In this document: positions 38,135-45,761 of the stretch, piece by piece
Numbering within the stretch: the first letter of the stretch is position 1
Layout: each line of letters begins with the position of its first letter
NCBI RefSeq assembly: GCF_000429025.1
Contig: NZ_AUBB01000041.1
Span: 1-64,000 of the forward strand
Direction: 5' to 3'
Source: Actinospineispora spinosispora DSM 44797
Lineage (GTDB): Bacteria; Actinomycetota; Actinomycetes; Mycobacteriales; Pseudonocardiaceae
Length of the DNA: 64,000 nt
Program-made: the position numbers and the translations under genes
The notes under the pieces: model-generated
Told to the model about the DNA's origin: nothing
Seen by the model: the letters and a program-made list of their open reading frames with translations, nothing else
Databases searched by the model: none

Positions 38135-39340
38135 GTGGAGCTGGTGAGGGTTGTGGAATCGATCGAGATCGATGTCTTGGCTCGGGCTCGGAGGCGGCGC
38201 GGGCATCGGCTGGCTCTGCTGCCGATGGCCGTGGGGTGCGCGCTCGTCGCGGTCGGGATCGGCTGGGCGATGGGCGTGGTCCAGGAGAGGATCACGCGGT
38301 CCGGGCCGGTGCCGGGCTGGGTGGAGCCGTCCGGCCGGCTGACCTGGGTGCTCGGTGACGTCACCGAGGCGCAGTTCTACGCGGTCGTCCCGGCGGGTGT
38401 CGGGCTGATCGTCGCGGCCTGGCTGGCTCATTGGGGCCGGGTCCGGTTGCGCGGGTTCCACATCTGTCACGGCAGGCTGCCGTGGCTGTTCCTCGCCGTG
38501 GCGGTCGGGCTGGGGCTCGCGCACGCGGTGTGGGGCTGGACGCGGTTCGGCGGCTGGCAACCGACGTTCGCGCCGATCGTGTCGGTGTGCCCGGCGGTCG
38601 TGATGATGTACGGCAGCGGCTGGCGGGTCTCGCTCACCGCCGGGGTGCTCGGCGGTGTGCTGAGCGCGCCGCTGGCGATGGTCGCGGTGGATCTGATGTG
38701 CCGGCCGCTGGGCGCGCCGGTGGTGTTCGGCAACGTCGGGTCGATGGTCGTCGCCGGGCTGCTCGCCTTCGCGGTGTGCCGGCGGCTGCCCTGGATGCCG
38801 GAACCGGTCGACCTGGGCGCCGGACACCTGGACGACGGCAGGCACCCGTCGCCGTGGTGGCTGCCGCGCCGCGCGCTCGCCGACTTCACCGAGGCCCAGT
38901 TCTACGGCAGCGAATGGGCCGCGCTCGGGCTGTTCGCCGGGCTGCTGGTCGGCTGGCTGGCCGACCCGCGCGCCGCGTCCTACGGCTCCGGGCTGCTGCC
39001 TCAGATCCTGACCACGCAGCTGCTGACCGCGATCGTCGCGGTCTGGTGGTACTCCGGCCGCTGGAGCGAGCACGGCTTCTACCCGACGTTCGTCTCGCTG
39101 GTCTCGCTCGCGCCGACCGCCGTGCTCACCTTCGGCGGAGGCTGGCCGACGATCACCGTCGCGGTGCTGGTCGGAGCGCTGCTGGGGCCCGCGCTCGGCT
39201 GGTGGATCGGCCGGCGCATGCCGTACGGCTTCCACCCGTTCATCGGGTTCGTCGCCTCGATGTTCGTCATCACCGCGGTCGGTCTCGGCGTTCTGAAAAC
39301 CATCCAACTGGTCGGACTCGCCTTGTCGACCCTGCACTGA
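38135..39340 (+). CDS. Polytopic membrane protein with two-fold internal repeat (paralogue)
   Basis: A 401-residue integral membrane protein, clearly paralogous to the one at 16223-17368. TEAQFY occurs at 77-82 and again at 252-257, and WQPTFAPIVSVCPA near 141-154 matches FYPTFVSLVSLAPT in the second half. About 8-10 hydrophobic spans. As at the first locus, it is directly followed by an amidase gene (12 bp). No named family was recognised; a transporter for an amide-type compound is inferred from repeat symmetry and context. Start is GTG 38135, with weak support from the ribosome site. Confidence 0.7.
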   Translation: MELVRVVESIEIDVLARARRRRGHRLALLPMAVGCALVAVGIGWAMGVVQERITRSGPVPGWVEPSGRLTWVLGDVTEAQFYAVVPAGVGLIVAAWLAHWGRVRLRGFHICHGRLPWLFLAVAVGLGLAHAVWGWTRFGGWQPTFAPIVSVCPAVVMMYGSGWRVSLTAGVLGGVLSAPLAMVAVDLMCRPLGAPVVFGNVGSMVVAGLLAFAVCRRLPWMPEPVDLGAGHLDDGRHPSPWWLPRRALADFTEAQFYGSEWAALGLFAGLLVGWLADPRAASYGSGLLPQILTTQLLTAIVAVWWYSGRWSEHGFYPTFVSLVSLAPTAVLTFGGGWPTITVAVLVGALLGPALGWWIGRRMPYGFHPFIGFVASMFVITAVGLGVLKTIQLVGLALSTLH

Positions 39341-43751: not shown

Positions 43752-43755
43752 GCGC

Positions 43756-43789
43756 TACGTAGTTCAAAAGATACGTAGCCGTCTACGTA
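43756..43789. promoter_or_regulatory. Three TACGTA sites upstream of LysR gene
   Basis: TACGTA occurs at 43756-43761, 43772-43777 and 43784-43789, the first two flanked to give CTACGTAG-type palindromes. They lie 5 bases after the LuxR-ATPase stop and about 80 bases before the LysR start: candidate operator cluster. Confidence 0.5.
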
Positions 43790-43868: not shown

Positions 43869-44819
43869 ATGAACGTAGTCAACCTCGACCTGAATCTGCT
43901 CGTCTCGCTGGATGCGCTGCTGCGCGAACGGAGCGTGACCAGGGCGGCCGCGCGCATGGGCCTGGGGCAACCGGCGCTCAGCATGGCGCTGCGCAGGTTG
44001 CGCAGGCATTTCGGTGACGAGCTGCTGACCAGGGTCGGCAACAGTTACGAGCTGACGCCCCTGGCGTTGCGGCTGCGCGAGCCGGCCGCCGAGGCGCTGG
44101 CCGGTTTCGAGCGTGTGTTCACCTCGACCCCGGCGTTCGACCAGGCCACGACACGGCGCCGGTTCCACGTGCTGTGCTCGGACAACACGACGGCGATGCT
44201 CGGACCGCTGGTCAGCACAATTCTCGCGGAACGCGCGCCGGGTGCCAGTGTCCGGTTCAGCCAACCGGAGAATCGCCAGCCGGACAGCGGCGAAACGGAC
44301 ACCTGGGGCGAGGGCATTCTCCGGCGTCACGACGCGGTTGTCGCGCCCCACGGAGTTTTCCCGGGCCGCCCGCACCTGGAATTGTGGACCGATAGCTGGG
44401 TGGCCCTGGTGTGGAGCGGAAACACCCGGATCGGTTCGGTACTGACCTCGGAGAATCTCGCCGAGTTTCCCTGGGTCCTGTTCGACAACGACACGTTGTT
44501 GCCGCCGCCCCCGCCGAGGCACCTGCTCGACCCCCGGATTCAGGTGCTGGTCGACAGTTTCCTGGCGATGCCGTTCTACATCGTCGGGACCGACCGTCTC
44601 GCGCTGCTCCCGGCCGGGCTCGCGGCCCGCTGGAGAAGTGACACCGAGCTGCGGGTGCTGCCCTTGCCCGGCGCGCCCGCGCCGATCAACAACGCGCTGT
44701 GGTGGCACCCGACGCACACCGACGATCCCGAACACAGCTGGTTCCGCGCGGTGTTCGCCGAAGCGGGCCAACGACTGGCCAGAGCCCGCCCGGCCTCGTC
44801 GCTGCGGTCGACCGCTTGA
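43869..44819 (+). CDS. LysR-family regulator (NodD/SyrM-like)
   Basis: A 316-residue LysR regulator. It starts NLDLNLLVSLDALL, the hallmark of the NodD/LeuO-like branch, with the helix-turn-helix at about 20-45 (SVTRAAARMGLGQPALSMAL) and an effector domain after residue 90. ATG 43869 gives the usual N-terminus. Its TGA overlaps a possible TTG start of the NOS-like gene (TTGA at 44816-44819), suggesting coupled translation. TACGTA sites upstream may be its autoregulatory operators. Confidence 0.88.
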   Translation: MNVVNLDLNLLVSLDALLRERSVTRAAARMGLGQPALSMALRRLRRHFGDELLTRVGNSYELTPLALRLREPAAEALAGFERVFTSTPAFDQATTRRRFHVLCSDNTTAMLGPLVSTILAERAPGASVRFSQPENRQPDSGETDTWGEGILRRHDAVVAPHGVFPGRPHLELWTDSWVALVWSGNTRIGSVLTSENLAEFPWVLFDNDTLLPPPPPRHLLDPRIQVLVDSFLAMPFYIVGTDRLALLPAGLAARWRSDTELRVLPLPGAPAPINNALWWHPTHTDDPEHSWFRAVFAEAGQRLARARPASSLRSTA

Positions 44820-45679
44820 GCCCGTCGAGCGTGGACGGGCACACCGAAGAAGCGCTCTCCTCGGCGGCAGCCGTCGCCTGGCACCACCATGCGCGGCTCG
44901 CGGGCTGGCCGATGCAATGGCCGCTCACCGTGCACGACCGTCGCGGCTGCGCCGATACCGACGACGTGTTCGCCGCCTGCCTGGAACACCTGGCGCAGGC
45001 CACGAACGACGGCAAGGTCCGGCCGCTGATCACGGTGTTCGCGCCGCGCACCGACCGCACCCATCGAATCTGGAACTCACACCTGGTCCGGTACGGCTGC
45101 TGGGAGGGGCGCGACGGCGACCTGCTCGGTGACCCGCTCAACCTCGAGCTGACCGGCGCGATCGAGGCCCTCGGCTGGCGCCCGCGCGGCGGACCGGGCC
45201 GGTTCGTGCCACTTCCGCTGGTCATCGAACCCCCGCGCGGGCGGCCGAGGCTGTACGAGGTGCCCCGGGAGCTGATCCTCGAGGTCCCGATCACGCACCC
45301 GGAGTACGACTGGTTCGCCCGGCTGGGGTTGCGCTGGCCCGCCGTGTCACCGGTCAGCGGCATGGTCCTGCGCGCCGGGCACTCCCGCTACGCCGCGGTC
45401 TTCAACGGATGGCACGCGGGCCACGAGCTGAGTGGACGCAGCTTCGTCGAGTTCAACCGCTACAACCTGCTGCTGCGGATCGCCAGGGGGCTGATGGTCG
45501 AGTCGGACGACGACGCGCGCTGGATCGACCGGGTCGCCACGGAGCTGGCCCGCGCGGTAGACCACTCCTACCGCACGGCCGGGATCACGGTCTCCGACCA
45601 CACCGCCCTGCCCTACCCGCTCCCCCCACCCACCCACCCCACCCCCGCCTTCACCCACCAACCGTCCCCCTGGCGCTGA
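44816..45679 (+). CDS. Nitric-oxide-synthase-oxygenase-like protein lacking the heme-ligand cysteine
   Basis: A 287-residue protein that aligns along most of its length with bacterial NOS oxygenase domains: HTEEAL and VAWHHHARLAG (about 9-30), ATNDGKVRP-ITVF (62-75), RIWNSHLVRY (84-93), GDP (105-107), ELILEVPITHP (152-162), LGLRWPAVSPVSGM (170-183), FNGWHAGHEL (196-205), RYN, and ITVSDH. In NOS the first block is AWRNSxRCIGR with Cys as heme ligand; here Leu28 stands in that place. The substrate-binding Glu is kept (E204). The N-terminal hook and the C-terminal pterin/dimer segment are missing (family about 350-370). TTG 44816 overlaps the LysR stop; GTG 44831 is the alternative. NO synthesis by the known mechanism is doubtful. 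Confidence 0.75.
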   Translation: MSPSSVDGHTEEALSSAAAVAWHHHARLAGWPMQWPLTVHDRRGCADTDDVFAACLEHLAQATNDGKVRPLITVFAPRTDRTHRIWNSHLVRYGCWEGRDGDLLGDPLNLELTGAIEALGWRPRGGPGRFVPLPLVIEPPRGRPRLYEVPRELILEVPITHPEYDWFARLGLRWPAVSPVSGMVLRAGHSRYAAVFNGWHAGHELSGRSFVEFNRYNLLLRIARGLMVESDDDARWIDRVATELARAVDHSYRTAGITVSDHTALPYPLPPPTHPTPAFTHQPSPWR

Positions 45680-45689
45680 CCCCCCGGGC

Positions 45690-45761
45690 GCTCGCACAGA
45701 GCTTCTCCACGCCGCACAGAGGCTGGGGCCTCTGTGCGGCGTGCACTCGCTCTGTGCGAGC
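45690..45761. terminator. Nested hairpin between convergent genes
   Basis: Outer arms GCTCGCACAGAGC (45690-45702) and GCTCTGTGCGAGC (45749-45761); inner arms GCCGCACAGAGGC (45711-45723) and GCCTCTGTGCGGC (45728-45740). Located between the NOS-like gene and the convergent quinone reductase gene. Confidence 0.7.

Follow-up and report, generated by a model that had tools for sequence, protein, structure and literature searches.

The window analysed here, a 64,000-nucleotide stretch of Actinospineispora spinosispora DSM 44797 (contig NZ_AUBB01000041.1, positions 1 to 64,000), carries a gene for a 287-residue protein that is a real, new variant of the nitric oxide synthase (NOS) fold. The protein retains homology to the NOS family, the predicted fold and the substrate Glu, and has lost the thiolate ligand, the segment with the pterin Trp and the N-terminal part. 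With a probability of about 0.5, we read the protein as a maintained, strongly diverged bacterial NOS paralogue that makes no nitric oxide (NO), holds heme or a non-heme metal in a site built on His and is co-expressed with an overlapping LysR-type regulator.

44816..45679, forward strand: NOS-like gene, 287 codons plus stop, an open frame with a TTG start.

The sequence-only reading proved right in its main points. The intact frame described there was recovered and, as that reading had stated, its first codon overlaps the LysR stop, a TGA, in a TTGA junction; the LysR frame ends at 44819. Translation could also begin at a GTG, codon 6 (44831). The nearest relative, P0002, is equally long and the alignment with it begins at residue 1. 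The G+C content at the three codon positions (0.71/0.53/0.92) resembled that of the other called frames in the window. The protein had been proposed to be a NOS homologue, and the profile search agreed, with a match to PF02898 (NO_synthase) at E 4.6e-72 and 243.4 bits against a curated cut-off of 22.7. Residues 9-264 aligned with profile positions 46-303 of 362, and no NCBIfam model matched at E 0.001. The 287-residue protein was predicted with confidence to adopt the NOS oxygenase fold. The N-terminal part typical of NOS was absent, including the hook already reported as missing: extending the frame 57 codons upstream gained nothing in the Pfam match, which still began at profile position 46. 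The claim that the C-terminal pterin and dimer part is missing held only in part, the loss being internal. Set against the genome's own Cys-bearing NOS, the protein lacks about 22 residues (counted by eye), among them the WSW stretch that contains the pterin Trp, but the end of the domain was kept, since residues 269-282 aligned with its conserved VPP...TPVFH end.

45599..45661, forward strand: loss of about 22 residues (the pterin Trp segment), then the kept PP...PxF end, codons 262-282.

The same segment, with the Trp corresponding to Trp457 of inducible NOS (iNOS), was absent in both the window protein and P0002 (hereafter the pair). Trp457 is named as a pterin-site residue in the title of PDB entry 1jwj.

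Residue equivalences in the active site were taken from a HMMER alignment with mouse iNOS, the best PDB match.

44879..44908, forward strand: WHHHARLAGW replacing WRNxxRCIGR, codons 22-31.
44897-44899, forward strand: Leu28 at the position of the heme Cys, aligned with iNOS Cys194.
44882-44890, forward strand: HHH, residues 23-25, replacing iNOS Arg189-Asn190-Ala191.
45080..45082, forward strand: His89 replacing iNOS Gln257 in the alignment.
45413..45427, forward strand: H200-A-G-H203-E204, in which Tyr367 becomes His200, Thr370 becomes His203 and Glu371 is kept as Glu204.

The NOS blocks quoted in the sequence-only reading were present, and both the substrate Glu and the replacement of the heme Cys by Leu28 were correctly placed there. 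Among the features of a functional NOS, the substrate Glu was found as Glu204, the proximal heme Cys was Leu28 in both members of the pair (P0001 and P0002), and the Tyr that reads the carboxylate was His200. The partial text of PMC13291759 gives Cys194 as the proximal iron ligand in NOS and also the role of Glu371; it describes the pterin as bonded to Arg375, taking up and returning an electron during the reaction. For neuronal NOS (nNOS), an excerpt of PMC6120233 describes a hydrogen bond between Tyr588 and the substrate carboxylate and a strong effect of Tyr588 mutation on binding. Tyr588 of nNOS corresponds to Tyr367 of iNOS, as the two are offset by the same number as Glu592 and Glu371.

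Several other residues of the iNOS site were retained: Trp188 as Trp22, Arg375 as Arg208 and Arg382 as Arg215. Together with the substrate Glu, these favor an enzyme that still forms NO, or acts as an arginine-type mono-oxygenase, through a His-ligated heme. We consider such an enzyme very improbable, because the pterin Trp segment is lost and Tyr341, Gln257, Tyr367 and Asp376 are changed to Pro175, His89, His200 and Ser209. Two of these changes weigh less, as Pro at Tyr341 occurred in 7/248 and Ser at Asp376 in 35/248 Cys-bearing sequences. Gln257 is presumably a pocket residue. Arginine is unlikely to be seated as in NOS, because Tyr367, Gln257 and Asp376 are changed and His203 is added, and NO would not be expected by the NOS route because the Cys and the pterin Trp segment are absent. 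The lack of the thiolate, the pterin Trp and the Tyr for the alpha-carboxylate would rule out NOS chemistry.

In the reading we favor, the pocket would bind a metal through His residues. Gains of His at conserved columns made up 9/67 changes, compared with 46/1125 in 122 others (p 0.0016, a post hoc comparison). Heme might be held by a His on the distal side or by HHH; alternatively, a non-heme ion could be held by His89, His200, His203 and Glu204. Cys95 and Cys45, likewise new and kept in P0002, may be further ligand candidates. From these residues we infer a metal site in the former substrate pocket. His200 was common to all four Cys-less sequences described below and HHH was found in the pair only, so a new ligand from the distal pocket (His200, His89, His203) is at least as well indicated as one from HHH, which the sequence-only reading had put forward. 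Acting together with the neighbouring LysR or under its control, the protein would sense a small molecule or the redox state, or else catalyse an unrelated oxidation.

The protein search found 8 proteins at E <= 0.001 among 4858 candidates, of which P0002, from a metagenome cluster of 3 on a 1812-base contig, was 87% identical over its full length of 287 residues; the other seven were 42-46% identical. P0002 keeps WHHHARLAGW, His89, His200, His203 and Glu204, which answers in the affirmative, for the nearest relative, the earlier question of whether the Leu and the HHH are conserved. In a quick tree of 79 rows of actinobacterial NOS, the stem of the pair measured 2.49 changes per column with a support of 100, and its tips 0.029 and 0.13. 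The two proteins differed from each other at 12/150 columns conserved to at least 80% in the 77 other NOS, versus 24/136 other columns (Fisher p 0.019). At columns conserved to at least 97%, the pair kept 50/68 residues and lost 17 or 18; W34Q, among the 18 lost invariant residues, is a probable alignment slip, with Trp35 aligning with the conserved Trp. Stops, frameshifts and equal change at all columns, the signs of a pseudogene, were not seen, and the frame was intact in two lineages. This pattern favors a single burst of rapid change in the protein followed, probably, by its maintenance, although it is not proof.

An old duplicate in the process of being lost would account for the very long stem, the nearly invariant residues lost, the shortening at both ends and the presence in only 1/62 genomes of the genus. 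We nevertheless regard decay as quite unlikely, given the intact frame with normal codon composition, the lower rate of change at conserved columns and the confidently predicted fold. A near relative with the same changes implies a working protein more than a broken gene, and P0002, intact with the same length and motif, sets back the idea of a lone decayed copy. The decaying-gene option of the sequence-only reading thus lost ground through P0002 and the conservation pattern.

Among whole genomes, the HHH form was found only in the window's own, which was the single case in the 62 genomes of the genus, in 390 genomes of the family (best other match 48% identical among the matches listed) and in the overlapping order and class samples of 397 and 394 genomes. 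No member of the HHH lineage was found on plasmids (14 records, best 45%), on viral contigs or on genome contigs, the last scanned with two short peptides only, which yielded 4 distant NOS. The same genome carries a second, Cys-bearing NOS at C6:336609, 41% identical. The NOS rows of two family genomes matched named Saccharopolyspora proteins exactly over the columns compared, which makes Pseudonocardiaceae the probable family. Searches of the open-licence literature showed no report of Cys-less, truncated, paralogous or pseudo NOS, which is not proof of absence.

To place the loss of the Cys in the family, we compiled a census of 252 NOS-family sequences, comprising 124 proteins from the searches and 128 loci. 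The LysR loci L085-L096 do not form part of it, nor do L143, which is weak and has two stops, and L001, L140 and L144, whose genes were already represented. No two of the 252 rows are the same string, but some loci duplicate listed proteins (for example, L036 equals P0015 over the tree columns) and related rows are not independent, which applies to all counts drawn from them. The heme-ligand column held Cys in 248/252; the exceptions were the pair (Leu), P0006 (Gly) and P0007 (Trp). In a phylum sample of 296 genomes, 7 had NOS at E 1e-30, and none of the five phylum-sample loci in the census was Cys-less. At column 200, His occurred in 4/4 Cys-less sequences, whereas the 248 Cys-bearing ones had Tyr (196), Phe (51) or Ala (1) and never His. 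Column 200 was the only one of 274 columns with a residue common to the four Cys-less sequences and absent from the 248.

P0006 and P0007 sat in two different, otherwise Cys-bearing groups of the tree. In approximately unbiased (AU) tests, a single origin of the four Cys-less sequences was rejected (p 7.9e-9), as were the groupings of P0006 with P0007 (p 3.4e-87) and of the pair with P0007 (p 0.022); the grouping of the pair with P0006 was not (p 0.31). By these results the Cys was lost at least twice, perhaps three times, each time with the same gain of His. The protein search used words of the query, and P0006 was found partly through His200 itself; for P0007, 0/14 words shared with the query contain His200, and neither P0006 nor P0007 has a shared query word over the Cys position. 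P0007 carries 7 rare changes at conserved columns, including the Cys loss and the His gain. It is possible, if rather doubtful, that the two changes form a coupled swap, by which the NOS fold was turned at least twice, perhaps three times, into a different metalloprotein: the proximal Cys would be lost and the Tyr or Phe of the carboxylate site replaced by His, so that what was once the substrate side now holds the iron, whether heme or non-heme. The window protein would then be the most advanced case, with the His89/His200/His203/Glu204 cluster, HHH and the tie to LysR.

The variety of the replacements (Leu, Gly, Trp) suggests that the Cys was released rather than replaced. This would suit a pseudoenzyme free of heme and metal, whose NOS fold survives solely as a module for binding or docking, with LysR as one conceivable partner; the loss of the ligand, the pterin Trp and the N-terminal part from a kept fold and the overlap of the gene with LysR fit such a module as well. 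On balance we think it unlikely, in view of the excess of His and the shared His200. Trp22, Phe196 and Trp199, which we take to face the heme, are also all kept.

Several observations weigh against a maintained protein with a His-based metal site. Only two members of the HHH lineage are known, and the tree gave no clear nearest branch for them. His40, one of the nine His gains, is not common to P0002. P0006 and P0007 lack HHH, His89 and His203, one of the nine words that P0006 shares with the query (FNGWH) contains His200, and the unrejected grouping of P0006 with the pair counts on the same side. AlphaFold places no metals, and no neighbouring gene names a substrate.

Compared with Bacillus subtilis NOS (PDB 1m7v; PF02898), the protein lacks the heme Cys, the pterin Trp segment and the N-terminal part and has His at three pocket positions. 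P0006 and P0007 resemble the pair in that the Cys is replaced (by Gly and Trp) and His stands at the Tyr367 position; unlike the pair, they have a full-length N-terminal part, no HHH, and Gln and Thr at the positions of His89 and His203. NOS paralogues of the P0007 type (L055-L084 and kin) have also left the canonical active site, with Trp changed to Leu, Tyr to Phe and, in some, no substrate Glu. In the census, however, all of them but P0007 keep the Cys, none has HHH, and the tree does not join the pair to them. Placing the pair within this second paralogue clade was unsupported by the tree, and L055-L084 keep the Cys.

The second clade (L055-L084 and most of L097-L133) was present in many genomes of the family, with ALRDSGWC for AWRNSxRC and Phe for Tyr367. 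Its divergent members L097, L105 and L107 have no substrate Glu and keep the Cys.

The bond between Cys and heme is one of the defining traits of NOS, and the 248/252 sequences that keep the Cys include divergent paralogues without the substrate Glu. A fold that was kept while the Cys was dropped and one pocket His gained each time would show a heme-thiolate oxygenase changing its metal chemistry. Such short, single-domain proteins would also offer a natural test of a NOS pocket without thiolate and pterin. The metagenome source labels both P0002 and P0006 'nitric-oxide synthase', a label that can mislead on function.

The surroundings of the gene include three further features.

43869..44819, forward strand: LysR-type regulator (PF00126, PF03466), likely ATG at 43869, frame open from 43791.
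43754..43779, forward strand: operator-like inverted repeat GCTACGTA-N10-TACGTAGC, upstream of LysR.
45690..45761, no strand assigned: 72-bp palindrome, a dispersed-repeat copy, downstream of the NOS-like gene.

None of the 11 other LysR relatives in the genus had a NOS within about 1.5 kb on each side (tblastn), so that of 12 LysR loci only the window's own, L085, had one beside it; no LysR partner of P0002 could be recognized in the 120 matches listed out of 1046 LysR matches, where one 46% match on a contig of equal length (1812), from another source, was put down to coincidence. The inverted repeat at 43754-43779, a palindromic TACGTAG repeat pair, is a candidate for LysR's own operator. 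At 0 or 1 mismatch the pattern occurred at this site alone in the genome, and at up to 2 mismatches it gave 10 matches versus 9 for the reversed-pattern control.

Upstream lie genes for a LuxR-type STAND regulator, an amidase, an amidohydrolase and a methylmalonate-semialdehyde-type aldehyde dehydrogenase. A 401-residue frame (38135-39340) between the amidohydrolase and the amidase has a strong coding composition but matched nothing in Pfam or NCBIfam at E 0.001. The downstream neighbour, on the opposite strand, encodes a quinone-oxidoreductase-like protein. The 72-bp palindrome resembles a repetitive extragenic palindrome (REP), with 80 match rows at about 40 places (both strands match) on 16 contigs, with 40/87 candidates scored. 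Its recurrence on 15 other contigs shows that the contig fits the genome, and a contaminant contig was rejected on this ground. The palindrome may also end transcription.
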